Below are positions 929 to 56,272 of a stretch of 64,000 nt of DNA, piece by piece (the stretch's first letter is position 1; each line of letters begins with the position of its first letter). The notes below the pieces were generated by a model. That model was not told the origin of the DNA. It made no database searches and saw only the letters and a list, made by a program, of their open reading frames with translations. The position numbers and the translations under genes are program-made. The stretch lies in contig CACIKV010000008.1 in NCBI GenBank assembly GCA_902587325.1, positions 1-64,000 on the forward strand. The letters run 5' to 3'. This DNA is from an uncultured Bacteroidota bacterium. GTDB lineage: Bacteria; Bacteroidota; Bacteroidia; Flavobacteriales; Flavobacteriaceae.

Positions 929-2467
929 ATGTCTGACGAAAAGTTCAAAAAAATAGTATCTCACGCTAAAGAATACGGATTTATATTTCAGTCAAGTGAG
1001 ATTTATGATGGATTGAGTGCAGTATATGATTATGGCCAAAATGGTGTTTTATTGAAAAATAATATTAAAGAATATTGGTGGAAATCAATGGTACAACTAA
1101 ATGATAATATTGTTGGCATTGATTCTGCTATTTTTTCTCATCCTACAACATGGAAAGCGAGTGGGCATGTGGATGCATTCAATGATCCGTTGATTGATAA
1201 CAAAGATTCTAAAAAGAGATACAGAGCTGATAATCTAATTGAAGATTATTTACAAAAATTAGAATTAAAAATTTTAAAAGAACAAAAAAATCAAGAAAAA
1301 AGATTTGGAGAAAGCTTCGATAAAAAAACTTTTCTAGAAACTAATCCTAGAGTTATAAATTATAAGTCAAAGATTGATGTTATTCATAATAGATTTTCAA
1401 AAGCTTTGAATAATGATGACCTCAGTGAGCTAAAAAAAATTATTGATGACTGTGAAATAGTTTGTCCTATTTCAGGAACAAGGAATTGGACTGATGTAAA
1501 ACAATTTAATTTGATGTTTAGAACACAATTAGGTGCAACAAAAACTAGTTCAATAGACCTTTTTTTAAGACCTGAAACAGCTCAAGGAATTTTCTTAAAT
1601 TATTTGAATGTTCAGAAAACTGGAAGAATGAAGATTCCATTTGGAATAGCTCAGATTGGAAAAGCTTTTAGAAATGAAATTGTTGCTAGACAATTCATAT
1701 TTAGGATGAGAGAATTTGAACAAATGGAGATGCAGTTTTTTATAAAACCAGGTTCACAAAAACAGTGGTATGAATATTGGAAAAAAGAAAGATTAAATTG
1801 GCATTTATCTTTAGGTATCGATAAAAGTTTATTCAGATTTCATAATCATGAAAAATTAGCTCATTATGCAGATGCAGCTTGTGATATTGAATTTAACTTC
1901 CCATTTGGTTTCAAAGAACTTGAGGGAATACACTCAAGAACTGATTTTGACTTATCTAATCATGAAAAATATTCTTCAAAACAAATAAAATATTTTGATT
2001 CAGTTGATAATTCAAAATATACACCTTATGTTTTAGAGACATCAATTGGTCTAGATAGAATGTTCTTAGCTATTTTTACTTCATCTTTAACTTATGATAA
2101 ATTAGAAGATAGTTCAAAAAGAGTTGTGTTGAAAATTCCATCAATTCTTGCACCTTATAAATGTGCTTTTTTACCATTACTTAAAAAAGATGGATTACCT
2201 GAAATAACAAAAAAAATTCAAAAAAAACTCAAACTTAATTTTAGTACTGCTTATGATGAGAAAGATGCTATTGGAAGAAGATATAGGAGACAAGATGCAA
2301 TAGGAACACCATATTGTATAACTGTTGATCATCAGACGGTTACTGATAATACTGTAACTATTAGGGAGAGGGACAGTATGAATCAAGAAAGAATTCATAT
2401 CGATAAATTAGAAGAGTTTTTGAGATCTTCCCTTAATATTAATAATTGGTTATTAAACAGTGCTTAA
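929..2467 (+). CDS. glyS: Glycyl-tRNA synthetase (single-chain type)
   Basis: Charges tRNA-Gly with glycine in the cytoplasm. The 512-residue length and motifs match the dimeric eukaryote/archaeal-type class II enzyme found in Bacteroidota, not the two-subunit GlyQS. The motif RPETAQGIF is near residue 214 and the class II motif-2 region FRNEI near 247. A C-terminal anticodon-binding domain covers about residues 405-500, and motif 3 is ETSIGLDRMFLA. The ATG at 929 is the first in-frame start and gives a typical N-terminus. The stop overlaps the GTG start of xth by 8 nt, so the two genes are probably co-transcribed. Confidence 0.97.
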   Translation: MSDEKFKKIVSHAKEYGFIFQSSEIYDGLSAVYDYGQNGVLLKNNIKEYWWKSMVQLNDNIVGIDSAIFSHPTTWKASGHVDAFNDPLIDNKDSKKRYRADNLIEDYLQKLELKILKEQKNQEKRFGESFDKKTFLETNPRVINYKSKIDVIHNRFSKALNNDDLSELKKIIDDCEIVCPISGTRNWTDVKQFNLMFRTQLGATKTSSIDLFLRPETAQGIFLNYLNVQKTGRMKIPFGIAQIGKAFRNEIVARQFIFRMREFEQMEMQFFIKPGSQKQWYEYWKKERLNWHLSLGIDKSLFRFHNHEKLAHYADAACDIEFNFPFGFKELEGIHSRTDFDLSNHEKYSSKQIKYFDSVDNSKYTPYVLETSIGLDRMFLAIFTSSLTYDKLEDSSKRVVLKIPSILAPYKCAFLPLLKKDGLPEITKKIQKKLKLNFSTAYDEKDAIGRRYRRQDAIGTPYCITVDHQTVTDNTVTIRERDSMNQERIHIDKLEEFLRSSLNINNWLLNSA

Positions 2468-3224
2468 CATAGTTTCTTATAATGTAAATGGTATTAGAGC
2501 AGCTTTGAGAAAAAATTTCTTAGGCTGGCTGGAAACTTTTAATCCTGATATAGTATGTCTACAAGAAATAAAAGCTAATCAAGATCAATTTGATTCATCA
2601 ATGTTCAACAAGTTGGGGTATTATAATTATTGGTTTTCAGCAAAAAAGAAAGGTTACAGTGGAGTTGCAATATTATCTAAAATAAAACCAAATAAAATTG
2701 AATATGGTACTGGAATAGATTATATGGATTTTGAAGGAAGAAATATAAGGTTAGATTTTGATAATTTCTCAATAATGAGTTTATATTTACCCTCAGGAAC
2801 CAATGTTGACAGATTAGATTTTAAATTTAAGTTTATGGATGATTTTGCTAATTATGTAAATGAGTTAAAAAGTTTTATTCCAAAACTTATTATTGGTGGA
2901 GATTATAATATTTGCCATAAAGAAATTGATATTCATGATCCAATTAGAAATGCTAAAATTTCAGGTTTTTTACCACAAGAAAGAGAATGGTTAGATAAAT
3001 TTATAAATAATGGGTTTATTGATACATTCAGACACCTAAATTCATCGCCAAATAAATACTCATGGTGGAGCTACAGGGCAAACTCTAGAGCAAATAATAA
3101 AGGTTGGAGAATAGATTATTTATTGGCAACTAATTCATTAACAAGTAGTATTAAACAATCTTACATACTTCCTGAAATTATACATTCTGATCATTGTCCA
3201 ATTGGTGTTAAAATTAAATTATAA
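2460..3224 (+). CDS. xth: Exodeoxyribonuclease III
   Basis: AP endonuclease and 3'-5' exonuclease of base-excision repair, of the metal-dependent EEP phosphatase fold. At 254 residues it has the family length and motifs: NVNGIRAA at the N-terminus, the metal-binding Glu in LQEIKA, GGDYNI (catalytic Asp/Asn) around residue 148, and the C-terminal SDHCPIG with the catalytic His. The start is GTG, inside the glyS coding end; no ATG is available nearby and the conserved N-terminus begins immediately (MLNIVSYNVNG). Its stop overlaps the next ATG as TAATG, so glyS, xth and the aldo/keto reductase form a tight operon. Confidence 0.95.
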   Translation: MLNIVSYNVNGIRAALRKNFLGWLETFNPDIVCLQEIKANQDQFDSSMFNKLGYYNYWFSAKKKGYSGVAILSKIKPNKIEYGTGIDYMDFEGRNIRLDFDNFSIMSLYLPSGTNVDRLDFKFKFMDDFANYVNELKSFIPKLIIGGDYNICHKEIDIHDPIRNAKISGFLPQEREWLDKFINNGFIDTFRHLNSSPNKYSWWSYRANSRANNKGWRIDYLLATNSLTSSIKQSYILPEIIHSDHCPIGVKIKL

Positions 3225-16340: not shown

Positions 16341-16727
16341 TTATCTTTTAGAGAATTGGAATTTTTTTCTAGCCTTTTTCTGGCCAAACTTTTTTCTTTC
16401 AACCATTCTAGGATCCCTTGTAAGTAATCCTACACTCTTTAATGCTGATTTATTATCCTCAGATAATTCACACAATGCTCTTGAAACTGCTAACCTGATA
16501 GCTTCAGCTTGTCCAGTGGTACCACCACCATAAACATTTACAGACAAATCATATTTACCAGTGTTACTTGTTAAATCAAAGGGTTGCATAATTTTATATT
16601 GTAATATTGTAGTGGGAAAATATTCTTTATAATCTTTTCCATTAACAATAAATTTATCTTTTCCTTTAGACATGTAAACTCTAGCTACAGATGTTTTTCT
16701 TCTACCGATCTTATGAATAACTTCCAA
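16341..16727 (-). CDS. rpsI: 30S ribosomal protein S9
   Basis: 128 residues with the normal S9 start (EVIHKIGRRKTSVARVY) and the conserved end KKARKKFQFSKR, whose terminal Lys-Arg reaches the ribosomal P site. The start must be TTG: in frame there are only four codons between it and an upstream stop, none of them ATG, while the conserved sequence begins at residue 2. It lies 1 nt after the rplM stop, the standard rplM-rpsI pair. Confidence 0.96.
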   Translation of the reverse strand: MEVIHKIGRRKTSVARVYMSKGKDKFIVNGKDYKEYFPTTILQYKIMQPFDLTSNTGKYDLSVNVYGGGTTGQAEAIRLAVSRALCELSEDNKSALKSVGLLTRDPRMVERKKFGQKKARKKFQFSKR

Positions 16728-16728
16728 A

Positions 16729-17181
16729 TTATATTTTATTTAAATTTATAGGCTGAGGATTTTGAGCCTCCTGCTTATGTATTTCTTTGTTATAAACTTT
16801 CAAATTTTTGAAAATTGCAGCTCCCAATTTATTCTTGGGAAGCATACCCTTTACAGCTTTTTCAATAATAATTGAAGGATTTTTATCATAAACTTGTTGA
16901 GCTGTTTTAATTCTCTGACCACCAGGATATCCAGTGTAGCTAATATATTTTTTATCAGACCACTTATTCCCTGTTAAATTAATTTTACTAGCATTTATCA
17001 CAACTACATTATCTCCACAATCAACGTGAGGAGTAAAGCTTGCTTTATGTTTACCCCTAAGTATTTTTGCTATTTTTGAACACATTCTTCCAAGAGTTTG
17101 TTCACTTGCATCAACAAGAAACCATTTCTTTTGAACGTCTTCATTTCTGATCGAAATTGTTTTAAAACTATTAGATTCCAA
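16729..17181 (-). CDS. rplM: 50S ribosomal protein L13
   Basis: Large-subunit protein with WFLVDASEQTLGRMCSKIA, the FTPHVDCGDNVVVINA segment, YTGYPGGQ and VKGMLPKNKLG. The reading frame is open to 17205 but contains no ATG before the conserved region. The first possible start, TTG at 17205, lies inside a full promoter -7 box, so it cannot be on a transcript made from that promoter. The next candidate, TTG at 17181, gives 150 residues, close to the family's usual 151, and an N-terminus (ESNSFKTIS) aligning with Bacteroidota L13. I therefore use 17181; an ATT start at 17196 is the alternative. Confidence 0.9.
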   Translation of the reverse strand: MESNSFKTISIRNEDVQKKWFLVDASEQTLGRMCSKIAKILRGKHKASFTPHVDCGDNVVVINASKINLTGNKWSDKKYISYTGYPGGQRIKTAQQVYDKNPSIIIEKAVKGMLPKNKLGAAIFKNLKVYNKEIHKQEAQNPQPINLNKI

Positions 17182-17202
17182 TTCAATTATTTTAATGGTC
17201 GA

Positions 17203-17233
17203 CAAAACTACAATAATTAATCAAAATTGCAAA
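17203..17233 (-). promoter_or_regulatory. Promoter of rplM-rpsI (-33 TTTG, 19 nt, -7 TAGTTTTG)
   Basis: On the minus strand TTTG (17233-17230) is followed after exactly 19 nt by TAGTTTTG (17210-17203). This fits the Bacteroidota consensus TTTG-N17-23-TAnnTTTG and is the best two-part match I found in the window. The predicted transcription start is near 17199, leaving a leader of about 18 nt before the TTG at 17181. Confidence 0.7.
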
Positions 17234-40671: not shown

Positions 40672-41595
40672 GTGATTCAACAAAAAATAAATAACACAGA
40701 TTTAATAAAATCTATTTCCAATGAATTGGGCTTTCTTTCTTGTGGTATTTCAAAATCTGGCTTTTTAGATACTGAGGCTGATAGATTTGAAAATTGGTTA
40801 AAAAATAATTACCATGGTAAAATGAGCTATATGGAAAGAAATTTTGATAAAAGACTAGATACTTCAAAGTTAGTCGAAGGATCAAAAAGTGTTATATCAC
40901 TTTTATATAATTATTTTCCTAAAACAAAAAAAAATCCAAAATCTTTTAAAATCTCGAAATATGCATATGGAAAAGATTATCATTTTGTAATCAAGGAAAA
41001 GCTAAAGCAATTCGTTTTAAAGATTAAAGATAAAGTTGGTGATGTAAATGCAAGAATTTTTGTTGATTCTGCTCCGATTTTAGAAAGAGCTTGGGCAAAA
41101 AAAAGTGGTTTAGGATGGGTTGGTAAAAACACCAATTTGATTAGTAAAAAAGTTGGATCATTTTTTTTTCTTGCAGAAATAATATTAGATCTTGATTTAG
41201 TGTATGATTCTGAAGTTACAGATCATTGCGGAAGTTGTACTGCTTGTATAGATTCGTGTCCAACGGATGCTATTTATGAGCCGTATAAACTAGATGCAAC
41301 AAAATGTATTTCATATTTAACTATTGAGTTAAAGGATAAAATATCAAATGAATTTAAAGGTCAATTAAATGATTGGATATTTGGTTGCGATATTTGCCAA
41401 GATGTATGTCCATGGAATAAGTTTTCAATAAACCACGAAGAACCTCTATTTAATCCGCGAAGTGAGATTTTGGAGTATTCAAAAAATCAATGGAAAGAAT
41501 TAACTAATGAAATTTTTGATTCTATTTTTAAATTGAGTCCAGTCAAAAGAACTAAATTTAAAGGCCTAAAAAGAAATATTGAGTTTTTACAGTGA
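40672..41595 (+). CDS. queG: Epoxyqueuosine reductase
   Basis: Last step of queuosine synthesis: cobalamin- and Fe-S-dependent reduction of epoxyqueuosine in tRNA. The 307 residues show the N-terminal cobalamin-binding domain ([46 protein letters not shown]) and two 4Fe-4S motifs ([16 protein letters not shown] near residue 188 and [11 protein letters not shown] near 240). HEAT-like repeats found in longer homologues are absent, as in many Bacteroidota. The start is GTG. It follows ruvB by 2 nt and overlaps the adenosine deaminase start as GTGA. Confidence 0.95.
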
Positions 41596-42578
41596 ATTTT
41601 AGAAATCTACCAAAAATAGAACTTCATGTTCATCTCGATTGTAGTTTGAGTTATAAAGTAGTAAAAAAAATAAACCCTAAAATTGATTACTTAAATTTTA
41701 ACAAGAAATTTAAAGCAGGACTTAACTCAAATTCTCTACTTGATTATCTTAAATGTGCAGAAAATGCAATTGATTTAATGCAAAATAAAACAAATATTGA
41801 ACTTATAGTTGATGATTTTTTTGATCAATTGAAGTATGATAATGTAGTTTATTGTGAAATTAGATTTGCTCCATTACTACATTGTAAAAATGATTTAAGC
41901 CCTGAAGATGTAGTTAGAATTGTATGCAAAGCTGTGTTAAAAAACACCAAACGGACGGGTATTATTGCCGGTATAATTTTATGTACTCTTAGGCATTTTT
42001 CTGAAAAACAAAGTATAAAAACAGTAGAGCTAGCTCAAATGTTTAGTAAGGATGGGGTAGTAGGTTTTGATATTGCAGCTGATGAAGCTGGTTTTTCTCT
42101 AGATAATCATATTAGTTCTTTTAATTATGCAATAAATAATAATATTAATTGCACTGCACATGCTGGTGAGGCTAAGGGTGCTGGAAGTATATGGGAAACA
42201 ATTAAAAAACTTAAATCAAAAAGAATTGGCCATGGAGTTAGATGTACTGAGGATAAAGAGTTGGTGAAATATTTAAAGGAAAATGATTATCACTTAGAAA
42301 TATGTGTCTCTAGTAATATAAAAACAAAGACATTTAATAAAATAGAAGATCACCCAATATCAGACATTTTTAATTCATCTATTTCTTTAAGTATAAATAC
42401 TGATGGACGGACCATTTCAGATACAAGTCTTACTAATGAATACGAAATTATTTCAAATAATTATAATTGGTCAATTAAAGATTTTAAAGTATGTAATTTA
42501 CAAGCTATAAAACATTCTTTTACATCAGACAATGTTAAAAAATATTTATCGAATATTATAAATACAGAGTACGTTTAG
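41592..42578 (+). CDS. add: Adenosine deaminase
   Basis: Zn-dependent hydrolytic deamination of adenosine (or a related 6-aminopurine). The 328 residues show all metal and catalytic motifs: HVHLDCS near residue 13, [10 protein letters not shown] near 190, IGHGVRC near 213 and [15 protein letters not shown] near 270. Substrate could be adenosine or adenine-like; the NTDGR form is seen in bacterial adenosine deaminases. GTG start coupled to queG by a 4-nt overlap. Its TAG stop extends 2 nt into the tRNA-Arg gene. Confidence 0.9.
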
Positions 42579-42650: not shown

Positions 42651-44114
42651 TTATCTATCAAATGCAGTTCTGTCTGAGTTAGTATGTTTTTTTAAAATTC
42701 TTTTGGATTCTTTTTTGACTTCAATATCATTTTTAATAGTCCATAATTTTGAAGCTGCAAATTTATATGTTTTACTAATATCAATAATTGGTTTTGGATA
42801 ATCGAAACCAATTTTGCAATCAAACATCTCTTGGTCAATTTCACTCAACTTCCATGGTTCAAAAACTAAAGGAACTGGAATTTTTTTTAGTTTTGGTATC
42901 CATTTTTTTATAAATAAACCTTCGTTATCATGTTCTTTTGCATTTTTGGTAGGGTTATAAATTCTAATCATATTTATTCCAGTTTCACCAGCTTGCATTT
43001 GAAATTGAGAATAATGTATACCGGGCTCAAAATCTAAAAAATTATTTGCTAAGAAAACAACACCAGCTTTCCAAGGCTGCCATAGATGGTGAGTAAAAAA
43101 AGAAACTAACATCGCTCTCATTCTGAAATTTAAATAACCTGTTTCAATCAAACATTTCATTGATGCATCAACTAAAGGATAGCCAGTTTCACCATTTTCC
43201 CATGCTCTTATATGTGTTTTGTTAATATTTTTATCCAGTTTTTCATAACCCCTATTAACGCTTCTAAATTCCATATCACTTTCCATTTCAAATTTTTGAA
43301 TGAAATGGGCTTCCCATCTTAGTCTTGATGTAAAACCATTTATCTGAAACTTTGATTTACCATGATTTAATTTTTCTTTAGCCCTTTGCCAAATATACCT
43401 GGTTGATAGATTTCCCCACGCAATATATGGTGATAGTCTTGAGCAATTAATTCTAGATAATTCTGGTTTACTAATATTACTTTGATATTTATCAATTCGA
43501 GTTTCAAGAAAAGTTTCTAAGTATTGCAGAGCATAAGTTGAGCCTCCGCATTGAAATTTGGATTTTTTAGGTTTTATAATTTTTCTTTCAAATTGGGATT
43601 TTTTATTCAATGTCACAAAGTCCTCAACTTTAGGATTAAAAACTCTAATTTTTTTTTTCATATAATTATTCCAATTCAAAATCCAGTTTTTCCTTGATTG
43701 CAGTCCCCTAAAAACTCCGTTGTTTATCTCTTCAATCCATTCAATATTATTTTTGTTACAATATTTTTTAAATTTTAGATCTCTGTCATAGGAGCTTTTA
43801 AGCCCTGTTTCCATATGTGAAAAAACTTTTTCAATATTAAATTTTGATTTTAATTCTTCAAACAAGGAAATAATATTCATCTCAAAAGAGTGAACTTTAC
43901 AACCAAATTTTTTAAAGAATAAGTTTAAATCGTATAATGATTCATTTATGAAATTATGATGCCTTGTTGTATAATGTTTGTCATTTAATAAAGCATTATC
44001 AAACGTGAATATTAAGAGTAATTTGTTGTTTTCTTTTACCGCTTTTGTTAAGGCAGTATTATCTATGGTTCGAAGATCTCTTTTGAACCAAAAGATATTT
44101 ATCGTTTGCTTCAA
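42651..44114 (-). CDS. phr: Cryptochrome/deoxyribodipyrimidine photolyase family protein
   Basis: 487 residues: an N-terminal antenna-binding Rossmann domain (INIFWFKRDLRTIDN) and a C-terminal FAD-binding helical domain with LSPYIAWGNLSTR near 230, RLRWEAHFIQKFE near 265, TGYPLVDASMKCL near 312 and the YNPTKNAKEHD segment near 392. Overall it looks like a Bacteroidota cryptochrome/photolyase branch; repair of cyclobutane dimers versus a sensory role cannot be told. The family N-terminus begins at a TTG, with no ATG available. It follows the Rieske gene by 5 nt. Confidence 0.9.
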   Translation of the reverse strand: MKQTINIFWFKRDLRTIDNTALTKAVKENNKLLLIFTFDNALLNDKHYTTRHHNFINESLYDLNLFFKKFGCKVHSFEMNIISLFEELKSKFNIEKVFSHMETGLKSSYDRDLKFKKYCNKNNIEWIEEINNGVFRGLQSRKNWILNWNNYMKKKIRVFNPKVEDFVTLNKKSQFERKIIKPKKSKFQCGGSTYALQYLETFLETRIDKYQSNISKPELSRINCSRLSPYIAWGNLSTRYIWQRAKEKLNHGKSKFQINGFTSRLRWEAHFIQKFEMESDMEFRSVNRGYEKLDKNINKTHIRAWENGETGYPLVDASMKCLIETGYLNFRMRAMLVSFFTHHLWQPWKAGVVFLANNFLDFEPGIHYSQFQMQAGETGINMIRIYNPTKNAKEHDNEGLFIKKWIPKLKKIPVPLVFEPWKLSEIDQEMFDCKIGFDYPKPIIDISKTYKFAASKLWTIKNDIEVKKESKRILKKHTNSDRTAFDR

Positions 44115-54154: not shown

Positions 54155-55512
54155 TAAAATCCAAGGATAATTTTAGCGATGTAGAAAAATAAAAGAATTC
54201 CAATTATATCATTTCCAGTTGTTATAAATGGACCAGTAGCAATAGCAGGATCTATTCCGAGCCTGTTTAATATTATAGGTACAGATGTGCCAATAAGGGC
54301 AGCTACAATAATTACAAGAATCATTGAAACAGAAATAGTAATACTCATATCTATTGGTTGTTCAATTATGAAACCAAATAAGATAATTAAACCACCAAGT
54401 ATGATTCCATTTAAAATAGTTAAACTAATTTCTTTAAATAGTCTTGAGATTAAACTGTCTTTTATTACATCATTTGCCAAACCTTGCACAACAATTGCAG
54501 ATGATTGTACTCCAACATTTCCAGCCATCGCAGCTATTAGTGGAGTGTAAAAGAATAAAGCTCTTAATGATTTTGTTGACATTATCGATTCATAGCTTTC
54601 TAAGATAAATACACTACCTAAACCACCAAATAAACCTAATATTAACCATGGTAATCTTGCTTTTGTTAACTCAAAAATAGAATCATCAGCTTCCACATCG
54701 TTTGAAATACCAGCTGCTAGTAAATAATCTTCTTCTGCTTCATCTTTGATTAAATCAACAATATCATCAATAGTAATTCTTCCTTGAAGTTGTTTTTGAT
54801 CATCTACAACAGGAATAGCTTCAAGATCATATTTTGACATTATTTTAGCAACTTCTTCACCTGAGTCATTAACATGAACGAAGTCAACTTTAGGGATATA
54901 TATTTGTTTAATTCTACTTTTAGATGGAGAGGTAATTAAATCCTTAAGTGACAATCTCCCTATCAATTCATTTTTTCGATTAAGTACATATATTGAATGA
55001 ACTCTTGTTATATTTTCAGCTTGTTTTCTAATTTCTCTCAAACATTTTAAAACACTCCAGTTTTCATAGACACTAATTAATTCCTTTGCCATTAATCCAC
55101 CTGCAGAATCCTCGTCATAACTCAAAAGTTCACGAATATTTTCAGTAATGTTATCGTCTTTAATCAAGGATATTACTTTTTCCTTTCTCTCATCAGTCAA
55201 TTCATCTAAAATGTCAGCAGCATCATCACTATCCATTTCTGTTATTTCTCCTGCAATTTCTTTAGGGGATAATGTTTTTAGAATTTTTTCTCTTACATCT
55301 TCATCAAGCTCTGTAAGTATATCAGATGTTTTATCGCTATCAATAAGCTTAATCAGATAAATTCTTTGATTCTCATCTAACTCATCAATAATTTCAGCTA
55401 AGTCAGCATAGTGAAAGCCATCAACTATTTTCTTTATTTCAGAATTTTTTCTTTTGGAAATTAGCTGGGAGACTTTTTCTATAAGTTCATTAGATAACTC
55501 AAATGTTTCCAT
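54154..55512 (-). CDS. mgtE: Magnesium transporter MgtE
   Basis: Mg2+ channel/transporter gated by cytoplasmic Mg2+. The 452 residues have the MgtE N-domain of acidic helical repeats (ILTELDEDVREKILKTL, EITEMDSDDAADIL), two CBS domains (about 135-255) and a five-helix membrane domain (LPWLILGLFGGLGSV near 285; PLIAAMAGNVGVQSSA near 325; IDPAIATGPFITTGNDIIG near 420 at the pore). Normal family length. It overlaps rsmA by 14 nt and the dehydrogenase by 1 nt. Confidence 0.96.
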   Translation of the reverse strand: METFELSNELIEKVSQLISKRKNSEIKKIVDGFHYADLAEIIDELDENQRIYLIKLIDSDKTSDILTELDEDVREKILKTLSPKEIAGEITEMDSDDAADILDELTDERKEKVISLIKDDNITENIRELLSYDEDSAGGLMAKELISVYENWSVLKCLREIRKQAENITRVHSIYVLNRKNELIGRLSLKDLITSPSKSRIKQIYIPKVDFVHVNDSGEEVAKIMSKYDLEAIPVVDDQKQLQGRITIDDIVDLIKDEAEEDYLLAAGISNDVEADDSIFELTKARLPWLILGLFGGLGSVFILESYESIMSTKSLRALFFYTPLIAAMAGNVGVQSSAIVVQGLANDVIKDSLISRLFKEISLTILNGIILGGLIILFGFIIEQPIDMSITISVSMILVIIVAALIGTSVPIILNRLGIDPAIATGPFITTGNDIIGILLFFYIAKIILGF

Positions 55513-56272
55513 TAGATAAGAGATTAGTTAAAAAAATATAATCATCTACATCAAGTTCCTCTGCTCGTTTGTCAAAGATACTATGTTCTTTGATATTTTC
55601 TATTTTTTTAAAACTCTTTAGGCTATTTCTTAGTGTTTTTCTTCTTTGATTAAAAGCTGATTTAATAATGTGTTTAAATAAAATTTCATCACAATCAATA
55701 TTATCTCTAACCTTTATTATCCTAATCACTGCTGAAGTAACTTTTGGGGGAGGGTTAAAAGATTCAGGTCTAATTTTTATTAAAAGTTCAACAGAAAAAA
55801 AAGCCTGAATTAAAACAGATAGTATTCCATATTTTTTAGTTCCTTTATTAGAACATATTCTCTCAGCAACCTCATATTGAAACATTCCTATCATTTCATA
55901 AATAATTTCCTTGTTTTCAAAGACCTTAAATAAAATTTGAGAAGAAATATTATATGGAAAATTTCCAATTATAGTAACTGGTGGATTATATTTTTTTATA
56001 TCAAACTTTAAAAAATCATCATTGATTAAGTCCTTTTTAATTTCTGAAAAGTTATTAAGTAAATAATCACAGCATTCTATATCTAATTCAATAAACTTTT
56101 TATTTATTTTATCAATTTTTAGAATCTCTTTAGTTAAAATTCCCATTCCTGGACCAACTTCAATTATAGTTTTTGTTTTTTCTACAGATATTAAACTAAC
56201 TATTTGATTAGCGATGGATATGTCTTTTAAAAAATTTTGACCAAATTTTTTTTTAGGATTTACAGTTTTCAA
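55499..56272 (-). CDS. rsmA: 16S rRNA dimethyladenosine transferase
   Basis: Dimethylates two adjacent adenosines near the 3' end of 16S rRNA, a late 30S maturation step. Conserved parts are KKKFGQNFLKD at the N-terminus, the SAM-binding EVGPGMGILT near residue 40, the catalytic NFPYNISSQ near 114 and the C-terminal FNQRRKTLRNSLK helix. The 257-residue length is usual. The start is TTG: no ATG precedes the conserved N-terminus. Confidence 0.95.
   Translation of the reverse strand: MKTVNPKKKFGQNFLKDISIANQIVSLISVEKTKTIIEVGPGMGILTKEILKIDKINKKFIELDIECCDYLLNNFSEIKKDLINDDFLKFDIKKYNPPVTIIGNFPYNISSQILFKVFENKEIIYEMIGMFQYEVAERICSNKGTKKYGILSVLIQAFFSVELLIKIRPESFNPPPKVTSAVIRIIKVRDNIDCDEILFKHIIKSAFNQRRKTLRNSLKSFKKIENIKEHSIFDKRAEELDVDDYIFLTNLLSNGNI

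Follow-up and report, generated by a model that had tools for sequence, protein, structure and literature searches.

Non-AUG start codons can act as regulatory devices in translation genes. The infC gene of E. coli starts at AUU, a codon that IF3, the protein encoded by infC, itself discriminates. The operon described here resembles infC in having a non-AUG start on a translation gene; we know of no IF3-like loop of start discrimination for L13 or S9. The closest precedent is the UUG-started rpsT gene. It encodes bS20 and starts with UUG in Enterobacteriaceae, Pasteurellaceae and Vibrionaceae and with GUG in some other gammaproteobacterial families, and an autoregulatory role of the weak start has been suggested, though without demonstration (PMC10931766). 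The rplM-rpsI operon, encoding L13 and S9, is controlled autogenously by L13 in E. coli, where the leader of 157 nt contains three hairpins and a Shine-Dalgarno (SD) sequence (PMC10931766). L13 r-leaders have furthermore been predicted in Firmicutes and Bacteroidia (Eckert and Weinberg, 2020; PMC7247131). Among the open-licence papers listed, we found no report of a non-AUG rplM start in Bacteroidota, and the word rplM is missing from the available text of PMC6847099 and PMC9976891.

We analyzed a stretch of 64,000 nucleotides (the window) from an uncultured member of the Flavobacteriaceae (genome G000; assembly of 1.475 Mb, 84.8% complete). As an earlier note had claimed for this DNA, both rplM and rpsI lack an ATG start. 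On the minus strand, rplM extends over 16729..17181 (150 amino acids) and is followed by rpsI at 16341..16727 (128 amino acids). The L13 profile PF00572 matches at 16777-17130 (contig C8) with an E-value of 9.1e-48, above the cut-off, and S9 was identified by its sequence, its place after rplM and the N-terminus GRRKTSVARVY in the alignment with relatives. Judged by title, the closest named relatives of L13 among the best 80 of 588 matches are mostly Flavobacteriales, such as Allomuricauda, Capnocytophaga, Tenacibaculum, Aequorivita and others. In the account that we consider the most probable as a whole, rplM and rpsI are ordinary, functional Flavobacteriaceae ribosomal-protein genes.

The open frame 5' of the conserved L13 domain offers just two TTG codons, at 17205 and 17181, in addition to ATT and ATA. 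The start is TTG 17181 and not TTG 17205, which the earlier note had considered as a candidate. The peptide LESNSFKT, which begins at TTG 17181, is the counterpart in the alignment of the N-terminus MDTLSYKT of the family, and hence rplM comprises 16729-17181 with its start at 17181-17179, and not 16729-17205. We sampled 23 genomes of the genus (g1) including that of the window; four gave no rplM match, and in all 19 that did the aligned start column reads TTG. In two of them (L005 and L006) an upstream start is ruled out by an in-frame TAG, which precedes the aligned TTG by two codons. A start at TTG 17205 was rejected, since this codon forms the end of a promoter-like box and lies outside the aligned column. 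Gene callers may extend rplM of this genus to the promoter TTG.

The start of rpsI at 16727-16725 is unambiguous among ATG, GTG and TTG codons. The frame above it reads TAA-ATA-AAA-TAT-AAT-TTG, so that the stop is reached without an ATG or GTG, and TTG 16727 is the sole possible start among these three codons, in line with the earlier note. At exactly this position of the alignment, other Flavobacteriaceae have the ATG of MEVIHKIGRRKT. Within the genus, rpsI was readable in 18 of the 19 genomes (the contig of L007 ends before rpsI) and starts with TTG in 12 and GTG in six, distributed over three clades, and with ATG in none. A sequencing or assembly error behind the TTG codons can thus be excluded, because the same non-ATG starts, including TTG in 19/19 rplM genes, are found in other genomes of the genus. 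Outside the genus rpsI starts with ATG: this applies to 79/79 named loci with rpsI in reach (from the best 80 of 588 L13 matches), four of which have an N-terminus one or two codons longer, and to all matches listed in a family-wide search save two rows from the genus itself. In what was sampled, a non-ATG rpsI is peculiar to the genus of the window.

The start codon is not the only difference at this junction. Outside the genus the rpsI ATG shares one base with the rplM stop (TAATG) in 42/65 loci, and in 47/79 named loci from the best 80 of 588. In the window the junction spans 16725..16731 (minus strand) and consists of the rplM TAA (16731-16729), one base and the rpsI TTG. A gap of 1-3 nt is present in 18/18 genus genomes, with 1 nt in the TTG clade of the window, 2 nt in the GTG clade and 3 nt in the second TTG clade. 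Thus, in the genus the rpsI ATG and the TAATG overlap are absent together. The sequence arrangement, with the stop adjoining the start, suggests termination-reinitiation at rpsI.

The comparison across relatives gave a different picture for rplM. A degenerate pattern was run over 299 genomes, and among the matches listed, from which chance ones were excluded by eye, 136 rows represent Flavobacteriaceae rplM; these start with GTG in 113, ATG in 22 and TTG in one case. A second sample was obtained with internal peptides and is hence independent of the start. Its best 80 of 588 L13 matches, all named loci and mostly Flavobacteriales, comprise 60 GTG, 16 ATG and 4 TTG starts. The 16 ATG loci include Tenacibaculum, Aequorivita and a Polaribacter, and ATG is also used in the g152 genomes L200-L202. 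TTG occurs beyond the genus in L019, L126, L256, L257, L267 and L273. In the phylum, about 47 GTG-type pattern matches were counted by eye across nine other families. GTG as the universal Bacteroidota rplM start was rejected: of 40 phylum genomes missed by the pattern, 23 read ATG by eye, 13 GTG and 2 TTG, with 2 ambiguous. The GTG start of rplM is therefore common in the phylum, not universal, and it is probably old. On a quick L13 tree (163 rows of 140 aa or more, first 9 residues removed, short loci L110-L169 absent) the start changed at least 11 times, and genus g1 forms one clade. One contig, C38 of G392, carries the only L13 gene of a genome labelled as another family (f19), and this gene starts with GTGGATACATTAAGCTACAAAAC, which is typical of the family of the window; the L13 start of two other f19 genomes is unlike it. 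C38 may thus be foreign to this bin.

The histories of the two genes thus differ, a point that the earlier note had missed. Since rplM mostly starts with GTG in the family, the TTG of the genus is just a small step, whereas the loss of ATG in rpsI is specific to the genus among the loci sampled. The note had considered a TTG pair in one operon unusual; the other ribosomal-protein genes read in the genome have ATG (see below), and rplM is mostly non-ATG in the family anyway.

Upstream of rplM, the minus strand contains a candidate promoter with a -33 element TTTG (17230..17233) and, 19 nt downstream of it, a -7 box TAGTTTTG (17203..17210), the last three bases of which are TTG 17205. TTTG-N19-TAGTTTTG is present in 19/19 genus genomes with rplM, 18-21 nt before the TTG start. 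The described Bacteroidetes -33/-7 consensus is TTTG/TANNTTTG, revised to TAHHTTTG (PMC6847099). TAGTTTTG fits TANNTTTG; its G at -10 conflicts with TAHHTTTG, and F. johnsoniae promoters are reported to have virtually no G at this position (PMC6847099). The spacer between box and start in the window (17182..17202, minus strand) has 21 nt and contains neither a 4-bp hairpin nor GTTTAA. Because transcription starts 4-5 nt after the -7 box according to the same source (PMC6847099), the mRNA leader of rplM is predicted to have about 16-17 nt.

Taken together, we favor, as on balance probable, an account that combines a weak rplM start, a shortened leader and a coupled rpsI. Both genes would be read from UUG by the standard initiator tRNA. 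In the family and part of the phylum, rplM mostly has the weak GUG start, and the most likely reason is that it suits expression control of a two-gene operon. In the genus the rplM start would have become UUG and a longer leader would have been reduced to about 16 nt. The rpsI gene would have lost the AUG that commonly overlaps the rplM stop, keeping UUG or GUG 1-3 nt past it. Ribosomes finishing rplM would probably start rpsI; such coupling would make the start codon of rpsI matter less and keep L13 and S9 in step. A weak rplM start may plausibly be under selection, given that most sampled loci have GTG even though AT-biased mutation would be expected to convert it readily into ATG. ATG is tolerated in rplM across several lineages, so a weak start cannot be indispensable. 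The weak starts may tune or autoregulate L13 and S9.

Autogenous control overlaps with this account, and as an explanation in itself we regard it as possible but doubtful. Free L13 would bind the leader and start region of the mRNA that encodes it, where a weak start would enable it to compete with the 30S subunit; as part of the same doubtful reading, the operon leader of the family would be an L13 r-leader that was lost or reduced in the genus. The known autoregulation by L13 in E. coli and the r-leader predicted in Bacteroidia (PMC10931766, PMC7247131) agree with this, as the operon is the same and the family has a leader-borne element 5' of rplM. Of 110 distinct leaders from outside the genus, 90 have a hairpin of at least 4 bp a short distance past the promoter box (single-base shuffles: mean 21.9, maximum 31), and GTTTAA is present in 68 of the 110. 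The stem sequences are highly varied. These leaders are mostly from Flavobacteriaceae and include other families (L062-L074, L088, L089); sequences without a TA..TTTG match were left out, and L115, L120, L125 and L163 were dropped. Two further loci were set aside: L065, where an ATG lies in frame 8 codons before the TTG, was excluded from the start-structure, tree and leader analyses, and L098, whose contig is cut, was unused. Autogenous control would also fit the choice of codons 3-5 of rplM (mostly ACA TTA AGC/T): in 64 non-genus sequences, codon entropy relative to usage is lower at these three codons than at any other well-conserved position of four- or six-fold degeneracy. The leader GUUUAAU can pair with AUUAAGY of these codons. 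This pairing is broken in L110, L116 and L117, where GTTTAAC stands alongside CTA AGT, and it is suggestive only, being confounded by descent.

The genus itself argues against such control, since unlike the L13 r-leader systems it has no such leader: neither hairpin nor GTTTAA occurs in any of its 9 distinct leaders (0/9). These leaders have only 18-21 nt, a length at which hairpins are hardly to be expected (mean of 0.3 in shuffles). No structured L13 r-leader was found at rplM of the window, the Rfam matches of which are three tRNAs only. Rfam models likewise gave no match in the rplM leaders of 27 loci at E-values up to 1, with few matches elsewhere. In the rplM neighborhood of one relative (L041, 2688-2774, plus strand) a Flavo-1 RNA scored below threshold with 34.8 bits (gathering 42, E 0.00091). 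The existence of rplM lineages with ATG also speaks against autogenous control. Leaders of ATG-started rplM genes differ in appearance: GACAAAAAACTA directly precedes the ATG in L036, L037 and 9/13 of L130-L142, these leaders often have an upstream ATG, and in L141 and L142 the TAA of a mini-ORF overlaps the rplM ATG.

Folding of the start region gave a mixed result. The minimum free energy (MFE) was -3.2 kcal/mol for GTG-started rplM (74 windows) versus -1.5 kcal/mol for S10-cluster controls (276 windows), and start pairing was 0.75 versus 0.36; in the genus the MFE was -3.3 for rplM versus -0.9 for controls. Compared with synonymous recoding, controls avoid structure (dMFE +0.96 and +0.58, based on 119/276 and 95/167 windows), whereas rplM does not (about 0). 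Start pairing changed over the recoded copies by +0.06 for GTG rplM and by -0.17 for the genus. The folds lie in different registers, and no single start-region fold common to rplM was found, which is a further point against autogenous control. A conserved hairpin at the rplM start codon is unproven.

Neutral drift is an unlikely explanation, in which the identity of start codons would be little constrained in a small AT-rich genome with many TTG and GTG starts. Starts other than ATG are no rarity in this genome: by a mechanical count, 12 of the 52 ORFs with 120 aa or more in the window, including rplM and rpsI, lack an ATG within the first 12% of their length, so drift could suffice. By eye, ORFs with no early ATG and a GTG or TTG start include those resembling exonuclease III (2460-3224, plus strand), adenosine deaminase (41592-42578, plus strand), photolyase (42651-44114, minus strand) and KsgA/RsmA (55499-56272, minus strand). 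The repeated changes of the rplM start on the L13 tree and the TTG starts of rplM that arise elsewhere fit drift as well. However, ATG stands at the expected N-terminus in each of the 35 other ribosomal-protein genes that were inspected visually in G000, which makes the rplM/rpsI pair exceptional among its peers. These are 25 genes of the S10/spc/alpha cluster plus rplK, rplA, rplJ, rplL, rplT, rpmI, rpsF, rpsR, rplI and rpsB; several were named by eye, the starts of rplX, rplR, rpsE, rpsK, rpmC and secY in G000 were taken by hand and not by automatic mapping, and about 15-20 more genes, estimated from the usual number, lie outside the count. The absence of ATG from rpsI in 18/18 genus genomes across three clades likewise speaks against drift, as does the prevalence of GTG in rplM outside the genus, given that AT-biased mutation should favor G-to-A changes.

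The sequence context of the starts does not compensate for the weak codons in a simple way. The lineage is SD-poor, as the earlier note had assumed: by a crude pattern, an SD tetramer precedes 8 of the 181 S10-cluster genes with a mapped ATG from eight genus genomes, and F. johnsoniae is described likewise (PMC6847099). A at -3 is the favorable base in that species (PMC6847099) and occurs in 129 of the same 181 genes and before rplM in 77/121 other loci. In the genus, however, rplM has G at -3 in 19/19 genomes, and a rescue of TTG by A at -3 was rejected for this gene. The suggestion that an AT-rich context explains the starts is accordingly not supported. The rpsI genes of the TTG clades have A at -3, and those of the GTG clade have G.

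In infC (IF3) of the same genome (L290, 656-1228, contig C20), ATG, GTG and TTG are all missing before the conserved part; the start is probably ATA (ATA GCA CTT AGA AAA AAA AGA), which recalls the AUU of infC in E. coli. This gene demonstrates that rarer starts occur, but true starts of rplM and rpsI at upstream ATA or ATT codons, with TTG unused, are very improbable, since the TTG column aligns with the ATG or GTG of relatives, is TTG in all genus rplM genes and follows an in-frame TAG in L005 and L006.

Compared with rpsT, the account that we favor describes a modest but real variant of known biology. As in rpsT, an abundant ribosomal protein has a weak start throughout a lineage: rplM has the same non-AUG start lineage-wide, with TTG in the genus and GTG commonest outside, much as UUG and GUG alternate between families in rpsT. 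Unlike rpsT, which forms a single-gene operon in SD-using hosts, the trait concerns a different protein and two adjacent genes in an SD-poor lineage. Ribosomal-protein genes are not always ATG-started, which calls for caution in annotation. A bolder proposal, which we consider rather unlikely, is that the L13-S9 operon of Flavobacteriaceae is governed by start-codon identity, that GUG, hairpin and the GUUUAAU pairing with codons 3-5 form a new L13-sensing element, and that in the genus the leader was given up while UUG on both genes preserved the balance. In any case, one operon offers a natural series of ATG, GTG and TTG starts, of leaders kept or lost and of TAATG overlaps kept or lost. This series sits in a lineage that hardly uses SD sequences, so that one could measure how much start codon, context, leader and coupling each contribute to ribosomal-protein levels.
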